Positions 4,347 through 40,799 of a stretch of 64,000 nt of DNA are shown one piece after another. The first letter of the stretch is position 1. Each line of letters opens with the position of its first letter. The stretch is from Aurantiochytrium sp. KH105 (Eukaryota > Sar > Bigyra > Thraustochytrida > Thraustochytriidae), in assembly GCA_003116975.1 (NCBI GenBank), contig BGKB01000038.1, forward strand, positions 372,001 through 436,000. The letters are read 5' to 3'. A model generated the notes under the pieces. The model saw only the letters and a program-made list of their open reading frames with translations. It was not told where the DNA came from and made no database searches. Both the position numbers and the translations under genes were made by a program.

Positions 4347-4389
<43 letters not shown>

Positions 4390-5057: not shown

Positions 5058-5855
5058 GGGGCCGCGCTGGTCTCGGACGCCGCGCGGCCGCCCCTTCGCG
5101 CGCCGGGCGGCGCAGGCCGGGCCCGCGCGTCGTGGGGAAAGAAGGCCGGTCTCGCGCGTCGCGGCCAAGAGCGCGCGCAGCGGCGAGCGAGCGGGGCCGC
5201 GGCCAAGAGCGCGCGCGAGAGACGGCCGGGAGAACGAGCGAGATTGAAGGATTCAAAACCAAAAGTTCGACCCGAGCCCGTCGCCCGAGCCAGCCCAGCC
5301 CAGCCCCAGCCGCGGCCCAGCCCGGGCGGCGCGGGCGAGAGCGGGAAGAGCGCCTCGCGAGCCCCGCCGGGGCCCAAGCCCGCGCGCGACGGGCTGCGGC
5401 AGGCGCTGCGCTGCGCCGGGCCGAGCTCTGCGCGCGCGGCCGAGACTCTTGCGGCTTTGCTGACGGCTCCCTGTGCTCTTCCTGCTTGCCGAGTGTCCAG
5501 CGCGCCGGGATGGGAACGCGGCCAGGCGCAGGGTGTGCGCCGATCGTGGGAACGCCGCCGGGACCCCGCGGGCGCGTCCCCCGCGCGGCTGAGAGCGCTC
5601 GCTCGTACGGCGATGTGGCGGCATTCATGGACGAGCGAGCTCGAGAGGGGGTCCGACTGACCGAGCCAGGCCCGGGTGTCGGCGAAGGAGGCGGAGGGGC
5701 GAACGACGCGGCGACGTATGCCTGCGAGCTCTCGTTTCGCGTCCGCGATTGTCTGTGACCGGGGCGAGTCGCAAGCGTGGGGGAAACACCGTCTGCTTTT
5801 GGTGAAAAGGGGGGAAAAGTAAGACGTGAAAGTCGACCTCGGCGTTGGCACCGGC
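5058..5855. promoter_or_regulatory. Divergent promoter region, very GC-rich
   Basis: About 800 bases between two genes that point away from each other (ATG at 5057 on minus, ATG at 5856 on plus). It must carry both promoters. It is dominated by G/C with few A/T runs, so several frames stay open on both strands. Those overlapping frames have Arg/Ala/Pro-dominated sequence and look like compositional artefacts. I see no clear TATA box. Confidence 0.55.
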
Positions 5856-23431: not shown

Positions 23432-25749
23432 TCTCTTCCGATCTCGATTTGCTCGTTGCGCTTGATGATTCTCTCTGATCACCTCACTCAGTCGCTGGTC
23501 GACAGTCGGAGAGTGGACTCACCAGGTTACTACCGGAGTGGACCCACCAGCGAGCGAGCGAGCAAGCAAGAAGAGCAGCGATCTGTCGCTGCGTCCCCGC
23601 GATCCCCTAGCTCGCGGCTCTGTGGCTCTGCGGCTCTGCAGCTCGTCCGCCGTCCACCTTGTCGTCCGCGATGCAACTCGCGTCCCAGACCCGCCACGGG
23701 CGCTGACTTGAGGTTCTGCTTCCGGAGCGACGCCTCGTCCTTCGACTCGCAGTCCACCGATCCAACCTCGGCCCCTCGCGCGTATGCGCGTACACGTCCC
23801 AGGCCGAGTACACGTCGGCGCCCTTCCTTCTCCAACCTCGCCCCGCCTCGCGTCGGCGCCCTCGAGTTCGGGTTCTGCCTCTGGCCGCGGCGTGCTCAAG
23901 CGAGGCGTCCGCCTGGCTCTGCTTTGCTCTGCTTCGCCTTCTTGCATACGTGCAGGCGCCTGCAGCCAGCCAGCCCGCCAGCCAGCTGCAGCTGCTGCTG
24001 CAGGTGGAGAGAGGCGACCGGCGGAGGGACGGACGTCGGGCGGCCCGTGCCGCTCGCCGTCGCCAGCGCCGCGCCGCGACTGGCGCCCTCGCGCGCGGTC
24101 CCTGCGCCGGGAAGCCCGAGGGCTCCGCTGCGTCGCCCTGCTGGCTGAGCACAGTCAACGGGAAAAAGGAAAGACGGGAGAAAGAGGAGAGAGGAAGGAA
24201 GGACGAGGGAGAAAGAGAAGGAAGGAAAAACAAGGGGTTCAGACGCCGCGCGGAAGGGCGGCGCGGGCGCGCGCACCTGCGTCCGCCCCAGAGCAGGAGT
24301 TCAGGGAGGGAGCGGCGGCGGTTTTGCGACGTTGGGGAAAACCGCGGCAGTTTCATGCATGCGTGCGTGCTTTCTTGACTGGCTGTGAGCGGGGATGAGG
24401 GAGCTTGACGAGGAGGGGGAGAGCGTCGGGTTCGTGGAGCGCGCGGCGAGGAAGGGAGGGCGGGTGCCTGGCTGGCCCAGCTCGAGGAGGGCGCGCGACG
24501 GGTGGACGCGGAGGAGATGAAGATGCAGGTGCAGGTGCAGACGCAGATGTGGATGCGAGTGCCGATGCGAATGCGAATTTGCGGCCTCGATGGCGAAGGG
24601 GAGAGCCCGACGTCGGACGCAGAGACGCGGGTCCCCAGCCGGCGCTGGCTGGGACGATGCGCTCAGCTGCGAAGAAAGAAGTTCGCGCGATCGATGCGAC
24701 TGCAGCCAAGTGATCCGCACGGAGCTTGAACTGACACAGTGCCGGTGAGTGAGGAGTGGCCAGAAAGCTCTCATATGATACCCGCACGTTCGTCGGTATG
24801 GGCTGGACGAAAACATGAAATTCGTGACGCCACGGACACGTGGACAGAGGTGTCATGATGGGTGTGGCACTGGTGTTGTTGTCGTAATGCAGACACTTTC
24901 ACGGGGCTCCGACTCCGGGGAGCCAAATCGGTGGCGAGAGGCGAGAATTGCTTGCTTCCTCGCTTGCTTGATGCTGTTACTCACGTGCCTTGCTGGCAAA
25001 GCGTCATGGCTCCGTCATCAGTCAATCGATTGGCGACTTTCTGAAGAGTTCTCAAAGCTGAAGAAACTAGCCTTTAGCATAGCAAACTCGAGCCTGCGTG
25101 CGCGAATTGCAACTGGGTGCGAATGTTGACGACTCCCAATCGATCGCAGCAGCGGCTGCAGCATGCATGCACGCATGTATGAATGCGTGAGTGAGCGAAC
25201 GCATCGTCGTCGCCTCCTCGATCGTGCATGGTCTCTCTTTCCTCACCATGAATGCATTGAAAGGACTTGCTTGCTTGCTTGCTTGCTTGCTTTCTTCTCC
25301 TTCGCGATGCCGACGTGCTCACTTCACTCCTCTCGACTCCTGTCGGTCATCACATCGCAAGTCCATTTCAGGCCATCTTCGACCTCGAGGTTCAAGTTGT
25401 CATCCCAAGCCAAATCCGCGCGGTGAACGAGTGAGTAGGTGACTGAGTGAATGAGCGAGTGAGTGAATGCGTGCGAGAATGACGACGGCCAGTGGCAGGT
25501 GGGTCACTTTGTTATCTTACTGTAGTGAGCCATGCATGCAGTGGGCCACGATCGGATCGCACCACCTCGAAGTGGTGCCTGTAAAATCGGCTTTGCCGCA
25601 AACAAAGCCGCGGCGCGCGCGAGGGCGGGCGCGGGCGAGGGCAGGGTAGGGGCCCGGAGCGGCGCAAGGCAGCGCGCGCGGGCCTTCCGTCCCCCCACGC
25701 AGGCCGCTCGCAGGCGGAGATCGCCGGGGAAAACTGTAGCAAGACCAAG
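23432..25749. promoter_or_regulatory. 2.3-kb divergent, GC-rich spacer
   Basis: This separates the ABC transporter (-) from the deacylase-like gene (+) and must contain both promoters. The left 1.2 kb is very GC-rich, with Arg/Ala-type open frames on both strands that show no domain. 24510-24580 holds degenerate (GCAGAT/GCAGGT) hexamers. 25266-25292 holds a (CTTG)n repeat. No gene is supported. Confidence 0.5.
25266..25292 (+). repeat. (CTTG)n tetranucleotide repeat
   Basis: About six CTTG units in the divergent spacer. The reverse-complement unit CAAG forms a much longer array at 46632-46679. Confidence 0.9.
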
Positions 25750-27642
25750 ATGACCACCACGGCGAGCGACCTGCCCTCGCGAAAACGGCGGCAGAGGTTT
25801 GGGAAGGGGCAGAGCCAGCGGCGCGCAGGGACTCTGCGGCTATGCACGTACGTGCTGGGCATTCTCATCGCCTGCGATGCCGCTCTGCAATTTTATCTCA
25901 CGTGGGAACCGGCAGTAGACAAGGAGCCGCTGCGCATGTTCGACGCCCTGCCGGACCTCGAGACGCTCGTGACCATGTCTTCCTCTCTGAGTTTTTCCTG
26001 GGACGGCACCGGGTCATCACATGGCAGGGACCCACAGGGCGCTGGGCCCGCGCTTGTCTTTACGCCGGTCTCCTCAAGGTCCTATGAGCTCAACCTTAAC
26101 TCGCGTCCCAGCGATCAAGTGGCCATTACGCTCCGGGACGAGGAAAGCTGCTTCAAGTCCTTTGTCCCGCGTGCCCTCGTGTTTTCCCCACAAAACTGGG
26201 CCTCTCCGCGCCTTGTTCAGGTACAGGAAGACACTGCCAAATTCTTGGCTGGATGCTCTTCGCACGTTCTGCATGAGGTCTTCAGCACCGACCAAGCGTA
26301 TCATGGTCTACACGTGCGCACGCAACCGCTCGCAGGCTTCCGTCCCATTTCAGACATCGGCGCTGGACTCTCGCCAGCAGGCGATGCTCGTAGCAATGAT
26401 GCGGTGGGCTCCATGTCCGAAAATGCGCCTCGCTCCGAAAATCTCGAACCAAGCGCAGACGGCGCTGCAGCGGCCACCGTTACAGAGCAGCAAGAGGACG
26501 GAAGTGCCGTTCAGCAGTCCAAGGACCTCGACTCTGAATCTGCGGACAAAGCGGGCGCATTAGCGAACAGCGCAAGCTCTTCCTCGTCGCTTCGGTCCGA
26601 GGCAATGCACGTTCCACCATCTCCACCTACAGTTACTGGGATTCCTCCAATCGAGGTGTACACGAGCGACACCGATTTGTCGGCGATGCTTCGCGAGCAC
26701 CGGTGCGTGCGGACTGCTTTGTCCAATGGTGCAATCAAGTGCGAGTTCGCGATTGACACACCATGGGCCTCTAGCTTTTATATTATTAGCGCGCCCGCCT
26801 TGCAAGATGACTTGAGCGTGCCTGCACCAATGGCCTTGATCGTGTCAGGCGTCCATGGCAAGGAATTTGCTGGCTTTGGGGCCGGTGGTACCATCAAAAC
26901 GTGGCAGCCAGCACAAGGGCGCCTCATTGTCATTGATCGTATGAATGCCCGCGGCATCGACAAAAGAACCCGGTATGTGCCGCGATTTTCGAAGATGAGC
27001 TCGCACCTCGCCACCGCTTCCGCAAGTACGGGTCCACAGCCGCACCATGACGACCTGAATCGCGATTTCCCCGCAGACGTTTCTGTGCTTCCGGACAAGG
27101 TGTTGCCGGCGCACATATGGGACCTGGTGACCAAGCTCAAGCCCAAACTCTTTCTTGACCTTCACGAAGGATGGGGCTACTACGCACAACTCAAATCGCA
27201 CGAAGCAAAGGAACCAAATGTCCTCGTAGGCAACCCTCGCTTCTCAAAGGGCTCTTCAGTCATTGCCACAGAAAACAGCCTCGACCTGGCGCAAATCATG
27301 GTTGACGCCGTCAACGTCAACGTCAAGGAACGCTTGCATCGTTTCGAGGTTCTTTCGCCACCCATCTCGGGGGGGCTCGCGCGTCGTATTCACAACGCAT
27401 TCGGCGCGCAATCCTTTGTTCTTGAAACAACGCAGCAGAATCAGGCTTTGGAAAAACGCGTTTCGCAACACCTTCACATGGTCGCCGCGGCACTTCAGCG
27501 GATCGGATTCCTTGATCTCACTTTCAAGCCTGCAAAAGTTGTCAAAGCTCGTAAAACCGCTGCACAAGCGGCCGCAGCCTTCTCGGGGTTGGGGGCAGCA
27601 TCGGGCGGGCCGTCGAGCGCGCAACATCCGCACAAAAGGTAG
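25750..27642 (+). CDS. Membrane-anchored M14/AspA-type zinc hydrolase with beta-sandwich N-terminal region
   Basis: A 630-residue protein from the ATG at 25750. A basic N-terminus is followed by a hydrophobic segment at ~27-46, a signal anchor placing the rest outside the cytosol. Residues ~98-165 resemble Calx-beta-type extracellular repeats (L-x-F-S-P-x-N-W-x-x-P). Residues ~170-300 are a low-complexity linker. The catalytic domain (~305-615) has the zinc carboxypeptidase/succinylglutamate desuccinylase-aspartoacylase pattern: zinc ligands in HGKE (His369, Glu372), the DLNRDFP substrate-binding motif, the third zinc ligand in LDLHEG (His472), and the likely general base in FVLETT (Glu559). 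All expected catalytic residues are present. A secretory-pathway or surface amidase/peptidase is the best inference. The substrate is unknown, and DUF2817-like peptidase is an alternative label. Confidence 0.85.
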   Translation: MTTTASDLPSRKRRQRFGKGQSQRRAGTLRLCTYVLGILIACDAALQFYLTWEPAVDKEPLRMFDALPDLETLVTMSSSLSFSWDGTGSSHGRDPQGAGPALVFTPVSSRSYELNLNSRPSDQVAITLRDEESCFKSFVPRALVFSPQNWASPRLVQVQEDTAKFLAGCSSHVLHEVFSTDQAYHGLHVRTQPLAGFRPISDIGAGLSPAGDARSNDAVGSMSENAPRSENLEPSADGAAAATVTEQQEDGSAVQQSKDLDSESADKAGALANSASSSSSLRSEAMHVPPSPPTVTGIPPIEVYTSDTDLSAMLREHRCVRTALSNGAIKCEFAIDTPWASSFYIISAPALQDDLSVPAPMALIVSGVHGKEFAGFGAGGTIKTWQPAQGRLIVIDRMNARGIDKRTRYVPRFSKMSSHLATASASTGPQPHHDDLNRDFPADVSVLPDKVLPAHIWDLVTKLKPKLFLDLHEGWGYYAQLKSHEAKEPNVLVGNPRFSKGSSVIATENSLDLAQIMVDAVNVNVKERLHRFEVLSPPISGGLARRIHNAFGAQSFVLETTQQNQALEKRVSQHLHMVAAALQRIGFLDLTFKPAKVVKARKTAAQAAAAFSGLGAASGGPSSAQHPHKR

Positions 27643-27906: not shown

Positions 27907-28596
27907 TCAGGAGGTGTTGAGATCATTAGTTGCATCATCATCAGAGCTTGCCTTTGATTTTGAAGGAGGTGTGATCGTGTATCCAAAACTCAAGAGAAGT
28001 TTGAGCGTCTTCATTGCGGTGATTCGATCGTACTCCTTCTCTTCGTCCGTGAGCTCGCTATAGGGAACAAGACATGGATGCAGTTTATGCTCGTCATCTC
28101 GGGACATGCCATAGGTCCATCCTTGCTGCGTCCGCTGCAGGGCCCACTCCTCGTGTGTATTTTCTGCCAAGAGTTCCGTCAGGTCAACCAAATCCTGCGA
28201 AAGCTCAATATTATCTGTATTCTGCGGATGAGGGACGTAAACAACTCGCGGAAGAGACTGTTGCTCTTGAGTACTTCCATTCTGGTTCTGCTGTCCTGGC
28301 TGCGGCCCCTGCTGCCGGACGAGCTCTTCCACGGTAGCCATGATCAGCATGAGCTGTGCTTCATCGTTGACATTGCATTTAATACGAATCAATGCGCACA
28401 TCTTACTCCGCATCTCGTCGTCTCGGGCAAGACCATCTTCGCTTTCGTCGTTGGTCTTGGTTTGCGCGCAGTCGGCGTGCAATTCGGTATGCGCTCGTTC
28501 AAGCGAGTTGTGATGTTGTTCCATGGTCAACACATGCTCATTGTGAACGCCCGCAACGCGCAGCCTGTCGGCGACGACGCTTGGCGAAGCTCCCAT
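27907..28596 (-). CDS. Stand-alone ryanodine-receptor (RyR) domain protein
   Basis: A 229-residue protein from the ATG at 28594-28596; an upstream extension opens only on a GTG, and a TATAAA lies 75 bases upstream. Residues ~140-216 match the RyR domain of ryanodine receptors: LAENTHEEWALQR, GWTYG, K-x-H-P-C-L-V-P-Y, L-T-D-E-E-K-E-Y-D-R and TLKLLLSFGYTI. These are the family's most conserved blocks in the expected order. The protein has no channel domains, no membrane segment and only one RyR copy. The start MGASPS fits the N-myristoylation consensus (Gly2, Ser6). The middle (~60-100) is helical with two cysteines. Single RyR domains outside ion channels are known in protists and prokaryotes, but their role is poorly defined. 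It lies 723 bases from, and on the same strand as, the large STAND protein gene. Confidence 0.85.
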   Translation of the reverse strand: MGASPSVVADRLRVAGVHNEHVLTMEQHHNSLERAHTELHADCAQTKTNDESEDGLARDDEMRSKMCALIRIKCNVNDEAQLMLIMATVEELVRQQGPQPGQQNQNGSTQEQQSLPRVVYVPHPQNTDNIELSQDLVDLTELLAENTHEEWALQRTQQGWTYGMSRDDEHKLHPCLVPYSELTDEEKEYDRITAMKTLKLLLSFGYTITPPSKSKASSDDDATNDLNTS

Positions 28597-29319
28597 GCTT
28601 GCGCGTAGCTCGCAAGCAGTAGCTTTCGAGGTCTGAGCACGCACGCTCACGCGTGAAAAGGAGCAGTCGGTTTATAAAAATCGAAATGTATGCTTTTGAG
28701 TTTTAGGCCAAGACCTATAGGGGCCTATACCGCAAGGTAACGTCACGGTACGATATCCGTTACGATTTTTGGCGGACCGCCGAGCGGCCGCCGGGGACTC
28801 CGACGCGGAGGCCGCTTGGGCCCGCGCTGCTCGCGACCACCGGCTGCGGCGGGCCAGGAGGCGCCGCAGCCGGAAGCTCACCAGTGGTATAATAGGTATA
28901 GGGGAGAGCTGACGATTCGTTTTTCTTCCCGTTCTTGTTGGGTGGAGCGTAAATTCTTTACTTTTGCAAGTTTGGGGTCTGTGAATTGATGTTTTTGCGT
29001 TGTACACAAGGCAAGGTGGGGCCGCACGCAGCTCGGACGGACATGTTCTAGGCTTTTTGTCCAAGCTGGGTGGTATTCACGCCAACTGTGTGAAGAAAGC
29101 CAAATCTAGAGGCACCTAACGGAGCACGTTGGTTGGACAACCATGAAATAGAATAGGTAAGTCCTCCAAATATAAAATTGTTCGCGAGGCAGACTGCCTT
29201 TCCTTGTCAAAAAAGAACAACAGAAAACCAAATAGCTAGCCAAAAAAGTACCATTTGCGATCATGAATGATTCTTCTTTTGCAATCAAAACCGTTTTCCT
29301 TCTGATTTTTCTTTAAAAT
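28597..29319. other. Intergenic between RyR-domain gene start and STAND gene stop
   Basis: About 720 bases. The part next to 28676 holds the TATA box and short inverted words around a CRE-like ACGTCA at 28741-28746. The right part (29100-29319) is AT-rich and is the 3' flank of the large gene. A 130-codon minus frame here has no family signature and overlaps the promoter, so I do not call it. Confidence 0.45.
28671..28676 (-). promoter_or_regulatory. TATA box for the RyR-domain gene
   Basis: The minus strand reads TATAAA 75 bases upstream of the ATG at 28596. This implies a short 5' UTR of about 45-50 bases and supports the chosen start. Confidence 0.5.
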
Positions 29320-32300
29320 CTACGGACTGTTTGGCTGTAAAAGTTCATAAAGATGCGTGTGTTCCTCCTGCATTGCAGCGTGAATAGGCAGGTGACCCGA
29401 GTCTGATGGCAACGTGCGACTTGCACCATGCTCGATTAAAATTTGGCAAAGCTCGCCATTTCCATCAAAAGCCGCGTTAAAAAGGCACGAGGTGCCGTCG
29501 TATGAAGCGTCAGGGTTAGCCCCATGCTCAAGCAAAAGCTTGACGCAAGCCATTTCCTGCTCATATGCTGCTTGGTAGATTGCTTCGCCGCACTGACTCG
29601 CGTCGTTCGCGTCGAGCTTGGCGCCATGCTTGAGCAACAAGCCCAAGCAACCCGCTTGCCCCTCCTCAGCTGCGAGTGAGAGGGCCGTCTCCCCATACGG
29701 AGAAACGTGATCGAGAACTGCACTGCGTGTGGCCTCAGAAGTCGAGTCGAGGAAATCGAGTATTACGGAGAGAAGCGCAATCTCCCCTCGTCGGGCGGCC
29801 ATCATGATTGGCGTGTACTTGTTGGCCTCAATGTGCGCAAAAATGGGCACGGCGAGCTGGTCCAGCGTCAGATTGAAAGCCGCAACATTCTCTTTCAGCA
29901 GCTTGAGCAAATTCTGGAACAAGACCAGGTCGCCGTTTCGCACAACATATCGCACGTACTTTCCAAGTTGCGCAGGAAATCTTGCTGGGCCGAGGAGCTG
30001 CGAAAAGCTAATGAGCAGTCGCGCGTCAATTGAACCAGTCACGTCCAGCGGAACAAGCATTTTCTGTACAAGGTAATAGACTGGCTGCCACCGGTGGTCC
30101 GAGAGGAGCTTGATCTTTCGGACCCTGTAGCGTTCCGCATTGCGAGCGTCCGCAGAAAGTACGCTCAACGTGTCTTCATCGTTTTCTGCATCGTCGTCTT
30201 CAGACTCGCTCAAGGACGGATCTGAATAAAGGTCAGCGCGTTCGGAGTCTGGGTTGTCAGATTCCTCGTCCTCTGTGCACCCTGTCTCGTCACCCGACGC
30301 TTCGACTTCCCAGTCTTCATAAAGAACATTGCGACCGCAAGATTGCAACAGGTTTCCAGATGAAAATTCAGGGCAGGGCTCTTCTGCGGAGGAAAGGTGT
30401 ATGTGGTCCTTGGCGGTCAGATTGAGCTCGAATATAAAAGCTTTCAGCTCACTAGGATCGATCTCTTGCACTTCGCGGACTACATATGCCGCGACGAGAT
30501 ACTCTTGAAGAACATGAATTGCAAATCGAGCATGACGGTCCATCCAGAGCTTATTATGGTCTGTGGCATCTGCGTGGAACAAGGGCAAACTGGCGTTGCG
30601 AATAAGCGCCGAGATCGCATTAGCGATTCGGGCACCGCGCGAGTACGCGTCTGCTTCGGCTCCGCCCCGCTTCGCGTACATGGTCAGAGCTTCAGCGCAC
30701 CACACGCCAAGCGCTCGTCTGTTGTGACGCTGCAGGTGGAGAGCGAGTGCCATACATTCCATGAACGACTGACCCTCCTCGCTCTGACAGAGCTGCGAGC
30801 ACTTGGCTAGGTGGCGAGATGGTTGTATAGCAACCGGCGACTTGAGTAAATGGCGCACTGCGTACGAGAGGATCTTGGGAACACCCCAGTCAAGATCTTC
30901 TGCAGCTTCTTGATTGGCATGATTGCTAAAACTTCGTCTGAGGTCCAACTCACTTTCCACGAGGCCGCCCGTGTCGACGCTCGGGGTATATTCAGTTGTT
31001 CCGTTTGAACCTGCTGTCAAGTCCTGCTGTCCTTGTGCTCCCGTGCTCATATCTTTGAGCAGATTTGCTTCGTTGCTGGCCATGTGCATCGTCGAGTGCC
31101 AGTGATTCGTCAAGGCAAACACGAGCATTTTCACAAGAACAGGTGTGCCTGAAACAATCTCCTTGAAGACTGGTTTGCGAATTTCCGTGAGAAGAAAGCG
31201 CTCGAGCTCAGCAATGTTCAATTGACCGTCTTCAAGTCGATGTTGCACAAGGCGAACGTGCGACTTCACGAGTGTGCTAACGTGGTCCTGTGAGAGAGGT
31301 TTGACATGCACAAAGGAGACTTGTGAGAGGCAGACTTTGATATCCCGCTCACGTCTCGCCGTGAGGATAGCAATGACATCCACCTGACTTTCGATCCAGG
31401 CAAGGAGATCAACGCGCGTCTCGGGCCGCATATCGTCGAGGCCGTCGACAAAGAGAAGCATTTGTCCATTTTCGAGTGCCTTGAGCAGCAAATTGAACAT
31501 GGGCGATCCTTCTCCATAGCGATGCGCCCAAAAGAGCTCCATTACACCGAGCATCAGTCCTGCGTGCACTGGCGACTCGATCATGCTTCTCACTTGCTGC
31601 GAGTATGTAGATGACCGTGTCGACATCTCGCCCGAGCTCTTGTTCCGCTGCGGGTGCTGCTGCTGGTGATGCTGGTGGGAATGGGATGCGCCTTCTTTGT
31701 CTTGTGCATTCTTCAGTCGCCTTCTACCGGCTTTGTCGCTAACACTCGAAGAACGAGCTGCCCGACCGCCCGACAAGACCATACTTCGTCCGTTTGGACT
31801 CGTCATCAGCTCATGATGATGCATGCGTAAAAGGTCACGCTGTTGAATGCCCGTTGTTCGTGCAACAGACTCTCTCACCGTGCCTCGTTTCCGGCGACCT
31901 GTAGATGTCATAGGGCTCGCACTGGCTAAACTTTGACCGCTGCCATCATTTTGATCCGCAAAGAAATGCGCCGCGCGCGTGATCGTGCTCAGCGGACGTG
32001 AATTGATCGAGCTCAAATGTCTCGTTGACTCGCCGAAAGTGAACTTTGACTTTGCTTGGGACAGCTTCATGGATCCCAACCTGCTCGAGTCCGTGCTCTC
32101 GTTATTGCTTTGCATGATAAATTCAATATAATCACTTGCCGTGCTCTCTGTCGACCTGGACCGAGTAGAGCGGGCAATTTCGACGCGTTGCCGCAAAAAT
32201 TTGCAAATTTCGACTGCGTCGACCAAGACGGGCATGTAATAGTCTTGTTCTGCCAAAGCATGCGCGACAAGCTTCTTCATCACGATTGTCTTTCCCGAAG

Positions 32301-35300
32301 AACTCGGCCCACAGATGGCGACACGTCGCGCTTGAATGAGGTCTACTCCGAGCTGCTGTTGCACAAGGTCAAAGAACCGCGTGCTGCGCTCATTGATGGC
32401 CACGTTCGTGCACGTTGATCCAAGCTGCAGCGGCGGCGGTCTCGACTTTCGCTGCATGGAACGACTTCTCGCCGGTGCGCTCGTCGCAAGCGCAAAACTA
32501 TGTTCGTTTCGTGGCATTTCTGATAACGTGCTTGACTGCGAAGAGATCGAATCTTCGCCTTCCTCTTGCTGTTTCTGCTGCTGTTGCTGCTGTTGCTGCA
32601 AGCGTTTCTTGGCAAGACTCTTGGTGGCAGCTGACTCAACGTCGAGGTCCAAGGTGTCCCCAATGTTGAACACCTCGCCGGAAATAGGATCAAAGTGGTG
32701 ACCACATTTGAGAGCAATACGATTGAGGTATGAGCGCATATGTACCTCGTCCCGCAGACGATTCGTGACCACCAAACCTGGAGTGAGCGGTACCGTCTGT
32801 GGGGAGAATGACGACTTCTGTGGCACCGATCGCTTGCGAAGCCCCATGAGCTCGCCCGCATGCAAAAGGAGACCTGCAAGGGCTAGCTGTTTGTGCGCCG
32901 TGCTTGTGTCACGATAGCTCACGGCGCGGGCGGCGTAATAGGCCATTGCAGCGTGCCATTGCCGAATGTCTGCGGCATCTCGAGCATACTTTGCGCAGTA
33001 CCCGCGCAAGAGCTTGCAACATTGCCAAGCAAACTGCAGGCGACCGATCTTCTCTTTGGCTTCGCGAATATCCCGTTCGGGCTGGTCTTCGGAAGCCTTG
33101 ACGAGAGGATCAAGCACGGTCCGGTCAAGATCATCCGAAAGTGGTTCCTGCAGGCTCGAATACCCAGAAGAGAGCGCCTCGAGCATGAGCACTGCAGCTT
33201 GCATCTCTTCATTTGACTCGAGACTGAGGTACTCGAAGAGAATGCAGGACGTCATTTTGCACAAGTCCTGCAGCACGTGGTGCTTGCCACTCTGCGCAAA
33301 GTCGATCAGCCATGGAATACTCTGCGCGTCGATGACGATGTTTGCTGCATTCAGGTCTCCGTGACCCATACCCTCATAAAACTCGATGGTTGTTTCTTCG
33401 GCAACCTCGTCGCTGTTGATCCAAAAGGAGAATTTAAGTAGAAAATCAAAGAGTGCGCCCGCAGAGTCGCTCGCCCGCGACCTTGCGCGCGGCGCCTCAC
33501 GAAGGCCGAGTAATGACCAAAGGTGGGCTTTGCTGGCGACCAGAAAAGGGTCCCAAACCGAGTCTGCAATGACCTTGGCACGCTCGGGGCTCAGCACGCA
33601 TTTCCGGAGGGCGCCTTCGATGTCGTAGAGTGCGCGCACATCTCCAGAGGATTTGTCCTTGCCAGACATGGAGCTCTGCACCGTGCACTTTTCAAAAATT
33701 TCCCCAAAACACTCCAGCAGCACGTTATGAACAGAATGCATTGCACAAGCGTTTCGGTGGGCCATGGAAGCTCGCATTGGCTTGGCATTCTGCATTTCTG
33801 ACAAGAGCGTTGCGGCCTGCTCTTGTCGTTGCAGGCGGTCGAGGCAAATAGTTTTAAGCTTGTGGTCATGCCGAAAGTCGATTTGCTTTTGCTCGTAAAG
33901 GTAGAGGTCCTTGAGAGTGATGAGCTGGTTGTTTGTATTCTGGCCCGTCACGCCGCGAAACACGGACTGCCCTCCTCCGGCCAATGAAATTTTAATACCT
34001 CCGCGATTGTCTTCCGAGCTCAAAAATTTGCCGTGGAGTTGCGGCGCATGATCTCCCAGGTACGCGAGCATAAGTCGATGGCGGAATTCCTCTTGTTCGA
34101 TCGCTTGGAGAGTGTCGAGCTTGAGCACGGTAGCGTCCTGGACGCGTCCCTCGACATCAATGCAAATAGCATGGAGAACAAGCGAGCCTGAAAATCCGCC
34201 CGCAAGCTTTCGAATCCGAACAGAGCAACAATCTGGGCAGAGGCCTCGAATCACGCGAAGGTCAGCCTCGCTTAAGGAATCCGTCTCCTCATCATTGTCC
34301 CAGGCAATCATGACATCTTCCAAAACAGCAGCGAGCCAGTGAACTTCCTCGAGGGTGATGCAAATCTTGTTTTGGTCGATCCCGCTTTTGAAAAAGGCGT
34401 CGTCAATTTGCGATGTCGTGAATCGACATTTATATGCAAGGATCTTCCGAAGAACATCGATCCTAATCTCATCCTGTTCTGCTTGCGCTTTCATTTCTTG
34501 CAACAAGAAGGGCAAGAACGAAAAGAGTGTGGCAACGGAATCGCTGGTATTTAGATTCCTTGACAAGCTTCGCGCACGTTTAAAGGATTTGTTGGCAGAG
34601 ATGCATCCATCGGCAGAAGAAGAAGAAGAAGCTTTGAATGCTGTTGGCGAAATCCACTCCCAGCAAAGCCGAAGACGGGCAGGGCAGCGTTCCACCTGGG
34701 TTCGATAGACGGCTAGTGTCGGAGACTCCTTGACGCGATGTATGCTCGACCGAATATACGCCACGCGCGACTCGATGTCCAGTCCGTGGATCTTTGCGCG
34801 AAAAGCGTACGTATAAATGCTTTCGCGGTACGGCTGGAAGCGAGATTTACTTTCGCGTAGCTCGTGCGTCGGGGCCTGCGTAGGGTGAGCTCGTACCGCA
34901 AGCAAATATTGTCCGTCTTGGTCGGGTTCCTCTTCGTCGCTGGCGGTCGTATCTGTATCATTGCCAGCCGTCTCGATTTCAGCCGAGTCGCCCTCTGCAG
35001 AGCTGTCTTTTGTTTCATTCTCGGCGCCAGATACGCTCTTCGTGGTGACCGATGAGTCTGTGGTACTGATACTTTCGCTTCGTGACCTCATTGTCGTTTC
35101 GTCATTCGTAGGATCAATGTCTTGACCATTGCGATTCTTGTCTACTCTGTCGCATTCCTCTGGCGCCGCTCCGCAATCGCTCTTCGTTTCGGTTTTATCA
35201 TGTTCAAGGTCACCATTCGTGCCATCATCGTCATCATCCTCGCGCTCATCCTCAGCAATCTGATCTGCAACCCCAAATTTTGCAATGGGGGGAAGAGTTC

Positions 35301-36123
35301 GAGAGTTTCTTCGCGGTGGTCGTCCCAAGAATGATGCGGACTTGGAATGGAAGCTCGATGTCATGCGATGCAAGTCTCGTGAGATAGGCAAGACTTGAGC
35401 AATTTGTGGCGGGGCGGCCTCTGTCCCTGCGTCTGACTCCGACTCGGAATTGTTGCGTTCTGCGATACTACCAAAGTCGTCAAAGGAAGTACCTCGCGTT
35501 TCGACAGAGTTTTGGCGACTCGATTGTTGAATACGAAAATGAAGCCCTTCTAGGAACCATTTGTTCAGGCTCTCCTCGACAAAGTTACGCGCGTCTTCCC
35601 AGGTCCTGACTGCCGTGGGGATAAGAAACGAAATGCCCGTGCCCTCGCTCCAGGCTTCGAGGGACCCATCAGGAAGAATCATGTGCGTTGGGGCCAACAT
35701 CATCCCATTCAATCTACGACTTTCAATCTCAACGTACGCAACGCGAGAAACGAGGTCGCAGCTCGCAGGGTCGAGGTCGTCGCTAGACACGGTGGCATCT
35801 GAGCCGTCAGGCTTCATTTTGCCAATAAGACCCTTGCGTAGTAGTTCAAATAGTTCGGCTCTTTCGGCGGACCCATGAAGCTTTTTCAAGAGCTTTCGTT
35901 CGGCAGATGCGCGCGGCGAGCAAGGTTTACGCTCGGATGCTGGTTCCGTATTGTTCATTTTGGCATCAATTTTTTGCATACTGCTGATGCGGCTGCGTAC
36001 TGAGCTCTCGGATGCATCTTTGGATGAGGCTTGTTCTCTGGGATCAGCATTCGATACACTTTCTGTCTCTTCTGTCGCTGACTCGGAAGCATTGCTGTTG
36101 GCGTGAGGGGGAGATTGTAGCAT
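29320..36123 (-). CDS. Giant NLR-like protein: APH-type kinase domain + NACHT/STAND NTPase + ankyrin repeats
   Basis: 2267 residues; the first ATG is at 36121-36123. Residues 1-600 are Ser/Asp/Glu-rich with two patches of possible globular sequence (~60-200 and ~440-600). Residues ~620-1010 carry a phosphotransferase fold of the aminoglycoside-kinase type: gly-rich loop GGFSGS, Lys668 in VLKLD, catalytic HGDLNAAN (His921, Asp923, Asn928) and the metal-binding Asp941 in LIDF. All key residues are present. A polyQ tract follows (~1175). Residues ~1264-1780 form a STAND NTPase: Walker A GPSSSGKT (Lys1278), Walker B MLLFVDGLDD (Asp1560), then a sensor-type LTARR. Residues ~2088-2265 hold four to five ankyrin repeats. 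Effector/NTPase/repeat order is that of NLR-type immune or death-signalling switches. What it senses and phosphorylates is unknown; immune function is inferred from architecture only. Confidence 0.85.
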   Translation of the reverse strand: MLQSPPHANSNASESATEETESVSNADPREQASSKDASESSVRSRISSMQKIDAKMNNTEPASERKPCSPRASAERKLLKKLHGSAERAELFELLRKGLIGKMKPDGSDATVSSDDLDPASCDLVSRVAYVEIESRRLNGMMLAPTHMILPDGSLEAWSEGTGISFLIPTAVRTWEDARNFVEESLNKWFLEGLHFRIQQSSRQNSVETRGTSFDDFGSIAERNNSESESDAGTEAAPPQIAQVLPISRDLHRMTSSFHSKSASFLGRPPRRNSRTLPPIAKFGVADQIAEDEREDDDDDGTNGDLEHDKTETKSDCGAAPEECDRVDKNRNGQDIDPTNDETTMRSRSESISTTDSSVTTKSVSGAENETKDSSAEGDSAEIETAGNDTDTTASDEEEPDQDGQYLLAVRAHPTQAPTHELRESKSRFQPYRESIYTYAFRAKIHGLDIESRVAYIRSSIHRVKESPTLAVYRTQVERCPARLRLCWEWISPTAFKASSSSSADGCISANKSFKRARSLSRNLNTSDSVATLFSFLPFLLQEMKAQAEQDEIRIDVLRKILAYKCRFTTSQIDDAFFKSGIDQNKICITLEEVHWLAAVLEDVMIAWDNDEETDSLSEADLRVIRGLCPDCCSVRIRKLAGGFSGSLVLHAICIDVEGRVQDATVLKLDTLQAIEQEEFRHRLMLAYLGDHAPQLHGKFLSSEDNRGGIKISLAGGGQSVFRGVTGQNTNNQLITLKDLYLYEQKQIDFRHDHKLKTICLDRLQRQEQAATLLSEMQNAKPMRASMAHRNACAMHSVHNVLLECFGEIFEKCTVQSSMSGKDKSSGDVRALYDIEGALRKCVLSPERAKVIADSVWDPFLVASKAHLWSLLGLREAPRARSRASDSAGALFDFLLKFSFWINSDEVAEETTIEFYEGMGHGDLNAANIVIDAQSIPWLIDFAQSGKHHVLQDLCKMTSCILFEYLSLESNEEMQAAVLMLEALSSGYSSLQEPLSDDLDRTVLDPLVKASEDQPERDIREAKEKIGRLQFAWQCCKLLRGYCAKYARDAADIRQWHAAMAYYAARAVSYRDTSTAHKQLALAGLLLHAGELMGLRKRSVPQKSSFSPQTVPLTPGLVVTNRLRDEVHMRSYLNRIALKCGHHFDPISGEVFNIGDTLDLDVESAATKSLAKKRLQQQQQQQQKQQEEGEDSISSQSSTLSEMPRNEHSFALATSAPARSRSMQRKSRPPPLQLGSTCTNVAINERSTRFFDLVQQQLGVDLIQARRVAICGPSSSGKTIVMKKLVAHALAEQDYYMPVLVDAVEICKFLRQRVEIARSTRSRSTESTASDYIEFIMQSNNESTDSSRLGSMKLSQAKSKFTFGESTRHLSSINSRPLSTITRAAHFFADQNDGSGQSLASASPMTSTGRRKRGTVRESVARTTGIQQRDLLRMHHHELMTSPNGRSMVLSGGRAARSSSVSDKAGRRRLKNAQDKEGASHSHQHHQQQHPQRNKSSGEMSTRSSTYSQQVRSMIESPVHAGLMLGVMELFWAHRYGEGSPMFNLLLKALENGQMLLFVDGLDDMRPETRVDLLAWIESQVDVIAILTARRERDIKVCLSQVSFVHVKPLSQDHVSTLVKSHVRLVQHRLEDGQLNIAELERFLLTEIRKPVFKEIVSGTPVLVKMLVFALTNHWHSTMHMASNEANLLKDMSTGAQGQQDLTAGSNGTTEYTPSVDTGGLVESELDLRRSFSNHANQEAAEDLDWGVPKILSYAVRHLLKSPVAIQPSRHLAKCSQLCQSEEGQSFMECMALALHLQRHNRRALGVWCAEALTMYAKRGGAEADAYSRGARIANAISALIRNASLPLFHADATDHNKLWMDRHARFAIHVLQEYLVAAYVVREVQEIDPSELKAFIFELNLTAKDHIHLSSAEEPCPEFSSGNLLQSCGRNVLYEDWEVEASGDETGCTEDEESDNPDSERADLYSDPSLSESEDDDAENDEDTLSVLSADARNAERYRVRKIKLLSDHRWQPVYYLVQKMLVPLDVTGSIDARLLISFSQLLGPARFPAQLGKYVRYVVRNGDLVLFQNLLKLLKENVAAFNLTLDQLAVPIFAHIEANKYTPIMMAARRGEIALLSVILDFLDSTSEATRSAVLDHVSPYGETALSLAAEEGQAGCLGLLLKHGAKLDANDASQCGEAIYQAAYEQEMACVKLLLEHGANPDASYDGTSCLFNAAFDGNGELCQILIEHGASRTLPSDSGHLPIHAAMQEEHTHLYELLQPNSP
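32565..32602 (-). repeat. CAG tract encoding polyQ between kinase and NTPase domains
   Basis: A run of glutamine codons in the linker of the large STAND protein, interrupted by Lys/Gln-Lys. Confidence 0.85.
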
Positions 36124-37370
36124 TAGTGCGTCTTTTCTGCTGTCTCCGCGGATCGTAAAGCACGATGATTCTGGCAGCCTCGCCTGTGCTGACGCCAAGC
36201 GTGGGTCCAATCAGCGTCTCGCTTCCTTGAGTGAGGCTGAAAGTCCAGATGTTGTCGTCGTCGTTCGAGCAGAGGTTCACGGCCCTCGAATTGCGCAAAT
36301 TCTGACTGTTCACCTTACTAATGCCGCTATCGTTGCCTCTTTCGTCTTGGTTGCCCGCTTGCCCTTCAGCCCGTCCTTCTGGCCGGCTGGCCGTCCGTTC
36401 GTTCACGATTTGCGAAGACTCCTCTCGGTAGCGTCGCGACCTGCTTCGAGGCGCACCTGCTAGCAGGAAGGGTGCGCGTGCTCCGACCGCGCCGCAACCA
36501 GAGTGTTTTGATGAATGATGTGCTCGGCTTGAAATTGGCTTGGCGCGGATCCAGCGGAAATGGAGAACCGCCGAATAGACAACCAAACAAAACCTTCCTG
36601 CTTCTTCTGCTCGTTAAACCTCGGCAAACATGCGTGTGCAGTAGTCCGGAACAGTCCGGTTCTACCACCTGCGTATACCCACTTTCTGTCTAACACCTCC
36701 AATAGAAGCGTATTATGCCAATCGATATGCAAGCAAACTCTTCAGCGCCGCAGAAGAAAAAGCACTGGCACGTCCGTCTCACAGTGCGCTGGCTGACACG
36801 GGGCTTTCGGGTAGGCTTCTTCGATGCGCCTCACGTAAGTCCTTGTAAACGCTAGCCGTCGCGCTGCAAAGAGCGCACAACAGGTGGTAAGAGGGGCTGG
36901 GGTGGGGAAAAGATTGATCAGATGCAGCACGCGTCACATCATCTTTTGCCAACTGCAGACCCTTGCTACTTCCTCTTACTTGCCTGCCTAGCTGTCAGGC
37001 TACCTGCTGATGGAAATGTAAAACCGAATTCCGACGCCGAAGCAAGGCGACAAAAATCTGAGTCGATGCGGACAACAAAGCTCGAACTTGAGGACGTGTG
37101 GCCGGCGCGGCCGGCGTGAACGGCTCTATACGCCCCTTTTCCCCAGGGCCTCGTATCTGCACTTGGGCCTCTTTTTCACTATAATCTCCTTGTCCAAGAG
37201 CAGAAAGGGACTCACATGTCAGGCGTCGTGCTTGTCGTGGGCGGCGGTGCAAGCAAGCGAGCGAGCGAGCAAGCGCACAAACAAGCAAATAAGGATTCTG
37301 GGGCGTCCGCGCTGGGGACCCGCGCAGATAGCCGCCGCGGGAAGGACGCCCGGGCCAAGCCTCTGCCGCC
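36124..37370. promoter_or_regulatory. 1.25-kb divergent spacer between STAND gene and PDZ gene
   Basis: This contains both promoters. A run of AGCGAGCGAG-type tetranucleotides occurs around 37256-37275. Short open frames here (each under about 180 codons, on both strands) show no recognisable domain. Confidence 0.5.
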
Positions 37371-40300
37371 ATGGCGCTCGGCGCAAGATGGTGGACCCTA
37401 AGGCGGCTTGTGCAGCTTGTTGTCTTGGTCTACCTGGCGACAATAGGGCTCACAGCCAGGTCGGCGCGTGCAGCTCCGACGGGTCGACGCGAAGACGGGA
37501 GATGTACGGAGAGGGTCGTCTTTGAGGAGCCCATGGGTGCAGGACTGGGCATGCGGCTCAAGGCGTTGGCTGACAATCGCGTCGTTGTGCAACACGTCAA
37601 GCCTCGCAAACCGGCGGCAAAACTCGGCGTGCGCACCAACGACGAAATAGCGACCATCGGCGGCGAGTCCGTGTACGGTTTTCGCATGGACGACGTCACA
37701 AAGCTCTTGCGAAGGATACGAAATGATAACAATGGTCACGTGGAGTTCGAGTTCTTTGTCGAGTGCCCACCCGATGAAGATCACGATAAACAAAACGACC
37801 AAGACGACGGCATTAATAATCGCGATATTGACGACAACGCTGAAGACAGGGACGTAGATGCTCACGAGGACAATCTTCCCGATGCGGATACGGAACGCGA
37901 CGCCTCCGATGTCAAAACTACTGACTCAGATGCGGAACTTGAAAGGAACGACGACCAGCCTACGCTTGCAATGCCAGTCGTTCAAGAGGAAGGTTTCCGA
38001 CTTTCCAAAGCAGTCAACGAGCTGGCAGACGTCTTCTCGTCGGTGCAAACAAATGAACTTCAGCATATCGTTACGGTTGAAAAGTGCGAAAGCGATTCAT
38101 TAGGTTTGAAAGTTGGCAAAGCCAAGGACGGCTCAGGTCTCTATGTAAAGGCAATCAAGATGGACGCGTGGAGCCAAACTGCAATCGCTGATGGGGATGG
38201 CCTTGTCTCGGTGAATGGCCACCTCGTGCCTTCCGCTCCATCCCTCCAAGAGGCGCTTGCTCTAAACAGTCGTCACGTTTCAGTCGTTCTCGGGAGAAAG
38301 GCAGGCAAGTCTCCTCCACGCTATGGATTCGTGTTTGCGGTAGACCTTCCGGTTCTCCCCAAGGAAATCGTGTATGGAAAGGCCGTTTTCGCGCTGCATG
38401 AAGGTGCTCTGCGCGTTGTCGACCCCAACGCCTTTCAGCTCGATGACGGCTTGATTGAAGAGGGTGACATTTTGCTTTATGTGAACGGTCAGGATGAAAG
38501 CGAGGATATCTACCGTGCCTTTCAGGAGCGCGTCTTGTCAGAAGATCCCGATATTCGTCTTATTCTTCTTCGTGCGGACGACATCTTTGCATTTTGGCGC
38601 ACAATACAACTTAGCTCCCCATCATCTTGCGGGTCAGCAGATGATGACAATAGCACCGCCAAAGCAAACGCCGGTGAAACCGCAGTGACTCCAGACAATA
38701 TTCCATCTGATTCTGAACCTAAGCCTGAATTTGAACCACACCAGGAAGGCCAAAAGGATCGTCAGAATGTGGCAAGGGATGAGAATGAAGAGAATAATAC
38801 CTTTGGAACATTTGCACCCATGCCACCAGACGAGACTAGATCCGCAGATGATCATCATCTGAGCGGGACCGATGTTACCTTGGAGGGAGCTCCTAATCAA
38901 CATTCTGACGAGGAGAGCGAGAGCTTTGTCGAGTATCCTTCAAGTGTTGGGGATAACGACGAAAGAGTCAGCGATGGCGAGCACCTTTCTAATAGTCATG
39001 CGACGGCGAGCACGTTGGTTGACAGGCACGAGGGAACAGAGGTCGATGCTGTTGAAGCAGACAAGCCCGAGGAGGAGCAACAGCACCAGCCTGATGAGGA
39101 CACACTTGAGCCTGATGAGGATGATATGTTCAGCAGTGGTGATGACTCTGTACCAGCTGGGGAAGTCAGTGCTGATGATAAAGACAACGAGGACGGCTCT
39201 GCTGCAAGTGAAAACAATGCACAGGATTCGTCTGATCTTTCCTCTGAAGATTATTTGCAGACTGTTGAGAACGTCACAAGCGTGGATGAATCTTTGAATG
39301 AAGACGATATGGAAAGCATTAGTGATGAAGAGGAAGAAGACGAAGAAAAGAATGGGGGAGAGAATGATGCGAACAATGAAGTTGGCGATGATGGGGATGG
39401 TCAAGAAGGGGAAGATATAGTGGTTCAAGCCGAAGAGGATAATCTGGAATCAGAGGGTGGGGGATTTGCCGAAAAGACAGAAGAAGATGAGGACGATGAT
39501 GATAACGAGCAAATCGTAGACATGGATGGTGAAGAAAAAGATGAGAAGGTAGAGGAAGAGGCCAGTGCAAGCGAAAGCGATATTGAGAGCCAGACAAAAT
39601 CTATAGACGGAACCGACGACACGGACGAAGAGATATGTCAGGATCCCGAAACATTTGACGACGTAGATGAGGAGTTCGACATTGCAGACAAAAAGTCAGG
39701 AGGAGGAAACGAGATGGAAGAATCAGAAGTGGAGAATATGGGTGAGATTCATGATGAAACTAGTGACGACCAAGAAGAACTAGAAGAAGAAGGAGAAGAA
39801 GAAGACGATGAAGGAGCTTTATACGAAGCGGAGGTGCGTGCGGAAGAGGCTTTGCGAGAGTCTCTGCTGAAGCCGATCAGTGCGAGCACCGCTGCGTTCG
39901 AAGTGCGAGCGCTCAACAAGTGTGAAAACAATCCACTCGGGCTGCGAATGGGCAAAACCAAGAAGCGAGATGGATTCTACGTGAAGGAGATCATGAACGA
40001 CGCATGGCTTGCCACCGGGGTTCATTTAGGAGACTTCGTTTCTCGGGTAAATGGGCGGCGTGTAGGGGATGCAGAGGCGCTTCGCGATGCGTTGCAGACT
40101 GCACAGAATGCAGTATCGATCGAGTTTCAACGTGAGTTTGCGTCGCAAGCTGTCGCGGATCGATCATTGTATTTCCAGGTCATCGTCGAAGGTGCGGCGA
40201 TGCGTGTGGAGGATTCGGTCATTTGGAGCGCTGCAGACTACTTGCGCATCGAAGAGCTCGAGGAGGACGCATTTGAAGCAGGCCTTCGCATTGGGGATGT

Positions 40301-40799
40301 GCTTGTGCGCGTCGATGATGTGTCAATCAAGCACGAGGCGGATCTCTTGGATGTGTTGCGCTCGTATGGGAGTGAGCGCGCGCGTCTGGCGCTGACCATT
40401 CGCCGAGGCGCGATTGGAAGCTTTGCCGATGAAGTCCTGCTGCAAACCGATAGCGAGTGTGAAGTTTCTCCCAAGGAAGAGGAAGAAGAGGAGAAGGAGA
40501 AAATCAAGAATAAGAGGAAGGTTGCAGACGCAAATGCAGATCCTGCTCCGGCGAATTTCAAGGGTGATGCGGCTCAAGACGGCGTGTCCACGAGTGGAGA
40601 GCAAGAAGACAAGGTTTCTAGCGCGTGTGGCACGGAAGCTGACTGCAAAGAGGACACAAGTACGGATCGCGACGATGGGAATATTGCGAAGGGCTCGCTC
40701 GACATCCCGGCGCTGGTTGCAGACGTTTTGCAGGATGAAGAATTCCAAGCAGCTCTTCAAGTGGCGCTCCAGCGTGCCCTAGCGCGCACAGCAGTTTGA
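37371..40799 (+). CDS. Secreted or ER-lumenal protein with five PDZ-like domains and acidic linker
   Basis: 1142 residues from the ATG at 37371. A signal peptide is visible: basic start, hydrophobic core LVQLVVLVYLATIGL, Ala-rich cleavage region near residue 35. Five PDZ-like units follow. PDZ1 is at ~49-130 (GAGLGMRLKA, the carboxylate-binding loop region). PDZ2 is at ~234-310 (SLGLKVGKAKDGSGLYVKAI). PDZ3 is at ~334-403. PDZ4 is at ~842-922 (PLGLRMGKTKKRDGFYVKEI). PDZ5 is at ~932-1015 (AGLRIGDVLVRVDDV). PDZ2 and PDZ4 are clearly related to each other, suggesting internal duplication. Between PDZ3 and PDZ4 lie about 420 residues of Asp/Glu-rich low complexity, which could bind calcium loosely or act as a spacer. 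No protease or other enzyme domain is present. PDZ arrays outside the cytosol are unusual. I see no transmembrane helix after the signal and no clear ER-retention tail. Confidence 0.85.
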   Translation: MALGARWWTLRRLVQLVVLVYLATIGLTARSARAAPTGRREDGRCTERVVFEEPMGAGLGMRLKALADNRVVVQHVKPRKPAAKLGVRTNDEIATIGGESVYGFRMDDVTKLLRRIRNDNNGHVEFEFFVECPPDEDHDKQNDQDDGINNRDIDDNAEDRDVDAHEDNLPDADTERDASDVKTTDSDAELERNDDQPTLAMPVVQEEGFRLSKAVNELADVFSSVQTNELQHIVTVEKCESDSLGLKVGKAKDGSGLYVKAIKMDAWSQTAIADGDGLVSVNGHLVPSAPSLQEALALNSRHVSVVLGRKAGKSPPRYGFVFAVDLPVLPKEIVYGKAVFALHEGALRVVDPNAFQLDDGLIEEGDILLYVNGQDESEDIYRAFQERVLSEDPDIRLILLRADDIFAFWRTIQLSSPSSCGSADDDNSTAKANAGETAVTPDNIPSDSEPKPEFEPHQEGQKDRQNVARDENEENNTFGTFAPMPPDETRSADDHHLSGTDVTLEGAPNQHSDEESESFVEYPSSVGDNDERVSDGEHLSNSHATASTLVDRHEGTEVDAVEADKPEEEQQHQPDEDTLEPDEDDMFSSGDDSVPAGEVSADDKDNEDGSAASENNAQDSSDLSSEDYLQTVENVTSVDESLNEDDMESISDEEEEDEEKNGGENDANNEVGDDGDGQEGEDIVVQAEEDNLESEGGGFAEKTEEDEDDDDNEQIVDMDGEEKDEKVEEEASASESDIESQTKSIDGTDDTDEEICQDPETFDDVDEEFDIADKKSGGGNEMEESEVENMGEIHDETSDDQEELEEEGEEEDDEGALYEAEVRAEEALRESLLKPISASTAAFEVRALNKCENNPLGLRMGKTKKRDGFYVKEIMNDAWLATGVHLGDFVSRVNGRRVGDAEALRDALQTAQNAVSIEFQREFASQAVADRSLYFQVIVEGAAMRVEDSVIWSAADYLRIEELEEDAFEAGLRIGDVLVRVDDVSIKHEADLLDVLRSYGSERARLALTIRRGAIGSFADEVLLQTDSECEVSPKEEEEEEKEKIKNKRKVADANADPAPANFKGDAAQDGVSTSGEQEDKVSSACGTEADCKEDTSTDRDDGNIAKGSLDIPALVADVLQDEEFQAALQVALQRALARTAV

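Follow-up and report, generated by a model that had tools for sequence, protein, structure and literature searches.

The window analyzed here is a 64,000-nucleotide stretch of the genome of Aurantiochytrium sp. KH105 (contig BGKB01000038.1, positions 372,001 to 436,000), and the gene under study occupies positions 29320..36123 of its minus strand, where an ATG start codon at 36123 opens a frame that runs without interruption to a stop codon at 29320 and encodes 2267 amino acids. The protein joins a kinase of the aminoglycoside phosphotransferase (APH) fold assigned to the Pfam family TCAD9, a NACHT-type STAND NTPase and a C-terminal ankyrin array in one polypeptide, as an earlier note made from the sequence alone had proposed, and the motifs which that note named (Lys668, HGDLNAAN, Asp941, GPSSSGKT, LFVDGLDD and LTARR) were all found at the residues it gave. 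This order of an N-terminal effector, a central STAND module and C-terminal repeats on a single chain is the architecture of NOD-like receptors (NLRs). The gene belongs to a real, well-conserved TCAD9-NACHT-repeat family of thraustochytrids, the bacterial analogue of which is a family of TCAD9-NB-ARC proteins. The chance that 2267 random codons of the local composition would be free of stops is ~2e-43, the other five frames over the gene hold 54 to 98 stops each, and the reading frame is likewise uninterrupted at a second copy of the locus on contig C160 (2271 amino acids, 97.4% protein identity) and in three further relatives (kinase-region identities of 60, 43, and 36%); the frame is therefore not a product of chance. 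Two separate genes were ruled out because both copies and the relatives have a single open frame. Contig pairs such as C38, which carries the window gene, and C160 were taken to be paired haplotypes in a diploid assembly, as inferred from their pairing. All features of the gene are given below in window coordinates on the minus strand.

The Domains of the Window Protein

The kinase covers residues 615-1085 (32869..34281) and was defined by Pfam and by its invariant residues. The TCAD9 model (PF19974, ‘Ternary complex associated domain 9’) matched with 73.1 bits against a gathering cut-off of 40 (E 3.3e-20), in two stretches, the best of which places residues 910-1066 on profile positions 290-426; the link to the TCAD class, a guess when it was first made, is confirmed by this match. 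The generic Pfam APH model reached 17.4 bits (E 0.004), under its cut-off of 23.2, and a PDB profile search with the kinase returned a weak match to Rio2 kinase (E 0.009). Active kinases of the APH superfamily carry a G-loop, an ATP-binding Lys, an HxDxxxxN motif and a metal-binding Asp, and the residues for all four are present here: a G-loop GGFSGS lies at residue 642, the catalytic loop HGDLNAAN at residues 921-928 (33340..33363), and G642-S647, K668, E678/E679, H921, D923, N928, and D941 are invariant in a five-row alignment. A pseudokinase or integrated decoy was rejected in view of the kept catalytic residues together with a ratio of nonsynonymous to synonymous proportions (pN/pS) of 0.032 in the kinase.

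The NTPase was delimited as a NACHT-type STAND module at residues 1241-1905 (30409..32403), which probably comprises the nucleotide-binding part together with a winged-helix/helical region. NACHT domains are recognized by a Walker A motif, a Walker B motif of the form hhhhDG-D[DE] and a sensor [TS]xR, and these were found as GPSSSGKT (residues 1272-1279, 32287..32310), LFVDGLDD (residues 1557-1564, 31432..31455) and the sensor-1-type LTARR (residues 1587-1591, 31351..31365), with equivalents in the relatives P0003-P0005 described below, where P0004 has LFIDGLND. The Pfam NACHT cut-off of 26.7 bits was exceeded by P0003 (28.4) and P0005 (27.9), and hhalign matched the window-type NTPase (four sequences) to the NACHT regions of the paralogs C51 and C10 with 98.7% probability (E 3e-16, 308 columns) over approximately residues 1526-1886, a span that starts ahead of Walker B and reaches beyond the NACHT core. 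Between Walker A and Walker B lies a low-complexity insert of ~190 amino acids (residues 1320-1510, 31594..32166), marked by its pN/pS (see below) and by identities of 33, 23, and 10% to P0003, P0004, and P0005, respectively.

The C-terminal ankyrin array occupies residues 2096-2267 (29323..29838; Pfam Ank_2, 5.2e-18), with repeats placed by Pfam at about residues 2143-2262, and is 54, 39, and 38% identical to P0003, P0004, and P0005, against 62, 49, and 40% for the kinase. Two other stretches are conserved. The linker that follows the kinase (residues 1120-1165, 32629..32766) bears a DPxS-type motif and is 70, 61, and 46% identical to the same three proteins, and linker-like stretches were seen by eye in the paralogs C51, C10, and C19 and in a protein pair without a TCAD9 match (L024/L027). 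An N-terminal block to which no domain was assigned (residues 130-210, 35494..35736) is identical to P0003 at 37 of 81 positions and to P0004 at 27 of 67, while P0005 has no sequence there.

Orthologs and the Hondaea Gene Model

The kinase region gave four matches in the protein database, P0002-P0005, in searches that scored at most 8000 candidates and from which the three paralog types described below did not come back, whether or not the database contains them. That the protein comes from a protist, as had been supposed, is borne out by P0002 of Hondaea fermentalgiana (Labyrinthulomycetes), in which 1859 of 1868 aligned residues are identical to the window protein. Judged by similarity and layout, P0003, P0004, and P0005, with kinase-region identities of 60, 43, and 36%, respectively, are probable orthologs. 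TCAD9 and ankyrin models scored above their cut-offs in all of P0002-P0005 (TCAD9 71.5-90.9 bits), and the orthologs, including the Hondaea protein, keep the kinase-NTPase-ankyrin layout; P0005 starts close to the kinase. The Hondaea model begins at residue 103 of the window frame and treats three inner stretches (residues 472-552, 869-903, and 1304-1484) like introns, leaving them out. Since the window frame is open across all three stretches and each of them aligns with P0003 (40/77, 23/35, and 63/172 identical residues), we read them as coding; optional splicing is possible, above all of 1304-1484.

Paralogs and Selection in the Aurantiochytrium Genome

A TCAD9 search of the Aurantiochytrium genome itself (76 Mb in 367 contigs, the counts of large families being lower bounds) found eight loci, which pair into four genes with near-identical copies: C38/C160 (the window gene), C51/C123 (2193 amino acids), C10/C7 (3882 amino acids), and C19/C185 (1925/1920 amino acids). 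Stretches compared between genes are mostly 23-31% identical, and the duplications thus look old; one 110-residue piece of the kinase common to C51/C123 and C19/C185 reaches 43.6-44.5%. None of the four kinases has lost its catalytic motifs (HGDLN..N, with HNDLNGNN in C19). Kinase and NACHT stretches match between paralogs, unlike the tails, three of which are ankyrin and one HEAT-like: when tails were compared by BLASTP, the ankyrin tails gave weak matches (E 0.002-0.007) and the C10 tail none. C51 is a TCAD9-NACHT-ankyrin protein (NACHT 24.9 bits by hmmscan and 30.5 by genome search) that is also over the NPHP3_N cut-off (29.6 vs. 24.8); C10 joins TCAD9 and NACHT (33.8 bits by hmmscan, 24.5 by genome search) to a HEAT-type tail, the HEAT matches from an hmmscan of its L012 part being under their cut-offs; and C19 joins TCAD9, a P-loop domain (AAA_16, sub-threshold) and ankyrin repeats, with no NACHT match by hmmscan. 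An expectation of paralogs with variable repeats is thereby upheld in part: the four old paralogs do carry different tails, yet each corresponds to a single locus present twice, and the ankyrin array of the window gene is among its most constrained parts. By eye, the C10 paralog (L012) also has a seeming DUF4062-like stretch and a second P-loop NTPase at ~2880-3350 of its 3882 residues, where no Pfam match was found at E 0.01.

A fifth pair, C26/C252 (L024 at C26:348198-348914 and L027 at C252:22904-23617), has a related NACHT domain (31-32% identity) in frames of 1545 and 1560 amino acids; it has no TCAD9 match, and a DPxS-type linker can still be read by eye immediately ahead of the P-loop. 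Further NACHT matches, read by eye with those on C131/C20, C74/C178, and C26:1132707 left out, comprised two DUF4062-like-NACHT proteins (L018/L019 and L020/L021) and one AAA protein. An N-terminal ‘SSTF.D...ER’ stretch gives the two former their DUF4062-like appearance, their tails look WD40- or TPR-like, and we take them to resemble the NWD1/NPHP3 type.

Selection was assessed from Nei-Gojobori proportions between the two copies. Over the whole gene there were 150 synonymous and 54 nonsynonymous differences (pN/pS 0.111). With domain counts that are small and an ankyrin value that has a wide error, the kinase (residues 600-1085) showed 38 synonymous and four nonsynonymous differences (the ratio of 0.032 given above), the linker eight and none, and the ankyrin array (residues 2131-2267, 137 codons) nine and one (0.034); the ratio was 0.059 in NACHT from Walker B onward, 0.248 in the NACHT insert (1320-1520) and 0.271 in the N-terminus. 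The paralogs gave 0.094 (C51), 0.179 (C10), and 0.274 (C19). A comparison with neighboring genes yielded 14 rows, none from neighbors of the window gene itself; four of these are likely true neighbor genes on three other contig pairs (0.00, 0.19, 0.30, and 0.38), and the rest are family genes and open reading frames (ORFs) antisense to or overlapping neighbor or family genes, the antisense or overlapping ORFs having ratios of 0.12-1.57 and, in one case, no synonymous difference. The direction is clear: the kinase and the ankyrin array are under strong purifying selection, unlike the fast-evolving part of an arms-race receptor.

Bacterial Relatives of the Kinase and Known Systems

When the kinase alignment was used as a profile, it led to a single protein of bacterial type, P0006 (Clp_N-TCAD9), and a contig scan with P0006 (one locus from 14 pattern matches) placed a relative of it in an Anaerolinea assembly. 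A genome-contig scan with the kinase alignment returned 98 pattern matches and no relative, and tblastn of plasmids with P0006 returned 16 records, the listed best places of which all fall in query positions 2-158, the Clp_N end. A viral source has no support from the one scan of viral contigs with the kinase alignment (two peptide patterns), where 31 pattern matches included no relative. Among 301 Chloroflexota genomes, 81 had a match at E ≤1e-3 and 10 were above the TCAD9 cut-off. Ten best-matching proteins (L029, L037-L043, L030, and L031), from eight of the 10 genomes above the cut-off, were scanned for domains: four are REC-TCAD9 (REC falling slightly short of its cut-off in one), two Clp_N-TCAD9 and one TCAD9-NB-ARC, and three have no other domain. 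The REC-TCAD9 and Clp_N-TCAD9 proteins share the kinase family of the window protein, with a nearly full profile in L029, L037, and P0006, but have no STAND module or repeats by Pfam; their existence suggests that TCAD9 is in bacteria a general output module under several kinds of regulator.

The kinase region of the TCAD9-NB-ARC protein (L068; 1142 amino acids, 4021-7449) was used as a query and found 797 proteins at E ≤1e-3. Among the best 120, which are the closest to this fused query and where stand-alone kinases below the length limits could not appear, a count by reading the rows gave NB-ARC in 119 (all but P0104) and a TPR model in most. Named rows of this family (P0007-P0126) carry labels such as ‘predicted ATPase’ and ‘NB-ARC domain-containing protein’, with Anaerolineales/Anaerolineae as the organisms named. 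The layout of an N-terminal kinase, a central STAND module and C-terminal repeats exists in many bacterial proteins. Like the window protein, those of the TCAD9-NB-ARC family have an N-terminal TCAD9 domain (G-loop, Lys, and HGDLN), a central STAND module and mostly repeats on one chain; they differ in having NB-ARC rather than NACHT and TPR rather than ankyrin repeats, in a length of mostly ~1130-1260 amino acids, and in kinases that are very divergent. The bacterial protein P0104 (1324 amino acids) has TCAD9, TPR models and PF00211, which we take to be adenylate/guanylate cyclase, and is another TCAD9 signaling fusion. Directly after the L068 gene, with an overlap of a few bases, lies a 256-amino acid ORF (3254-4024, minus strand) that is possibly part of one operon with it.

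In phylogenetic analysis, the thraustochytrid-type kinases form one group (100/99 with 24 rows and 100/100 with 17 rows). The 24-row tree separates them from the NB-ARC-fused kinases, and a union of the two was rejected (approximately unbiased test, p 0.0009). The 17-row tree, which leaves out the long-branch rows L042, L038, and L043, row P0005 and the near-copies P0047, P0055, and P0104, unites the same two groups at 97/95; of its alternatives, thraustochytrids with REC and L040 were not rejected (p 0.088), and p was 0.035 for a grouping with ClpN and 0.042 with REC. The two trees conflict, and the placement of the group depends on which long-branch rows stay; five bacterial rows had no match to the G-loop pattern. 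The NTPase is NACHT on one side and NB-ARC on the other, a difference that would favor separate fusions or a swap.

In bNACHT proteins and animal NACHT NLRs, the NACHT core likewise has an N-terminal domain before it and a C-terminal sensor behind it, with effectors that are usually other domains than this kinase; there was no close sequence match among solved structures. Fungal NLRs with PKinase (PF00069) also have a kinase among the domains of NOD/NACHT proteins with repeat tails, although of another family than TCAD9. Excerpts of PMC4986451 and PMC12258605 list PKinase among the fungal NLR domain classes; in Sordariales, according to the latter excerpt, it occurs in 12 NLRs only, is C-terminal in nine and is treated as a putative integrated decoy. 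The window protein is thus not alone in combining a kinase, a STAND module and repeats, given the large bacterial TCAD9-NB-ARC family and this fungal class. Among the effectors described for bacterial conflict systems are a few active kinases of the APH superfamily (PMC7159879, PMC8195603). S/T/Y kinases are named as partners found N-terminally in STAND-FGS proteins, and ternary systems are said to include small-molecule kinases among their effectors (PMC8195603). TCAD9 is expanded as vWA-MoxR-VMAP-associated among genes near type III CRISPR loci (PMC10910872); the term TCAD is absent from the main text of PMC7159879. Among the matches listed in the open-licence literature, no description of an NLR- or STAND-type family in thraustochytrids, labyrinthulids or stramenopiles was found.

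A Putative Kinase Switch and Its Alternatives

We read the window protein as a putative single-chain STAND signaling switch that would activate an APH-fold kinase whose catalytic residues are intact, and give this reading a probability of about 0.6. It draws on the TCAD9 and ankyrin matches over their cut-offs, the NACHT assignment by way of P0003, P0005, and hhalign, the kept motifs and the purifying selection, as well as on the tails that vary among paralogs and on the joining of the same kinase to other regulators in bacteria. Several points weigh against it. With Pfam NACHT, the window protein itself scored 20.1 bits (E 6e-4), P0004 25.6 and P0002 21.6, all under the cut-off, and the NTPase of P0005 is also over the cut-off of the generic AAA model (22.1 vs. 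21.2 bits); the hhalign alignment covers the Walker B side only, Walker A not being included; and PDB profile searches with the window-type NTPase gave P-loop matches (RecA, dynamin-like) and no NLR, those with the paralog NACHT domains giving weak unrelated matches only (G-alpha, vps75). The activation steps set out below, namely ADP autoinhibition, ligand exchange, oligomerization and output activation, are moreover those of STAND proteins generally. The weak score of the window protein fits the insert that splits Walker A from Walker B; in the P0002 model, which lacks most of the insert, the NACHT profile was matched over positions 1-163, though with the score below the cut-off given above. 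The placement of the NTPase among STAND/NACHT proteins, proposed before any profile search, is supported by two of the four orthologs and by hhalign and not by the protein's own Pfam score.

In the resting state of such a switch, the NACHT module with ADP would keep the protein closed. A protein or peptide ligand at the ankyrin end could then lead to exchange for ATP and to ring assembly, the N-terminal kinases would be clustered or released so that phosphotransfer is switched on, and a phosphorylated small molecule or protein would pass the signal on; in the sister proteins, this kinase-NTPase engine would be coupled to different tails. As input, we consider a conserved cue from within the cell, for instance stress, damage or a host hub protein, most likely, rather than a fast-changing pathogen molecule.

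A true immune or self/non-self receptor is a distinctly less probable reading. In such an NLR analogue the ankyrin tail would sense either a guarded host protein or something made by a pathogen, and the effector would be the kinase, its output being, for example, a phosphorylated toxic or signaling metabolite or a protein-phosphorylation cascade ending in cell death. Only four genes were found, with no sign of expansion (large-family counts being lower bounds), and the ankyrin array is nearly unchanged between the copies; its identities to the orthologs, set beside those of the kinase, point the same way and are not decisive, and helper or guard NLRs can be conserved as well. The effector-NTPase-repeat order and the different tails of the paralogs do speak for a receptor, as do the Pfam name TCAD9 and the few active APH-superfamily kinases described as conflict-system effectors (PMC7159879, PMC8195603). 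An immune role is possible and not favored by the selection data, and the sensor kinase for infection or self-recognition that had been suggested for this gene is not supported by a selection pattern which is not suggestive of an arms race. Rather unlikely is a kinase-regulated scaffold, in which NACHT and ankyrin repeats would locate or assemble a complex and the kinase would act mainly on its own protein, with the Ser-rich N-terminus and NACHT insert as natural targets; these two long stretches are indeed Ser-rich by eye and weakly constrained (0.271 and 0.248), but large eukaryotic proteins often contain stretches of low complexity. Far less probable than either is a gene-model artefact with two adjacent genes read through as one frame: the Hondaea model does skip three inner stretches in an intron-like way, but it still joins kinase, NTPase and ankyrin repeats, as do P0003-P0005, and TCAD9, NTPase and repeat tail also share a single frame in each of the paralogs C51, C10, and C19.

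Beyond the putative signaling switch, the genes might represent a thraustochytrid kinase-armed STAND defense or quality-control system, with a conserved TCAD9-NACHT engine, exchangeable sensors and a kinase derived from a bacterial conflict system, in which ligand-driven NACHT assembly would produce a phosphorylated alarm signal; we regard this as a doubtful, speculative extension. If true, the bacterial TCAD9-NB-ARC family would have a counterpart among eukaryotes, and TCAD9 a eukaryotic role. The gene itself links a kinase family known from conflict systems of bacteria with a NACHT-type switch in protists for which the open-licence papers listed describe no NLR-like protein. Four natural tail exchanges, together with a bacterial look-alike that has another STAND module, would make the kinase as a STAND effector directly testable in both groups.

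Neighboring Genes

Partners of the vWA-MoxR-VMAP type were absent from the three neighboring ORFs scanned, beyond which the search went no further. One of these (25585-27642, plus strand) has a sub-threshold match to AstE/AspA-type hydrolases, and another (37332-40799, plus strand) is an acidic frame of 1155 amino acids with PDZ domains. The third (27907-28671, minus strand), on the same strand as the TCAD9-NACHT-ankyrin gene and ~650 bases past its stop codon, is a 254-amino acid frame with a stand-alone RyR domain (PF02026, 1.5e-33). RyR occurs at three loci genome-wide, each in two copies, the other two lying inside frames of 2132-2185 amino acids, and the C160 copy of the window gene keeps its RyR neighbor.

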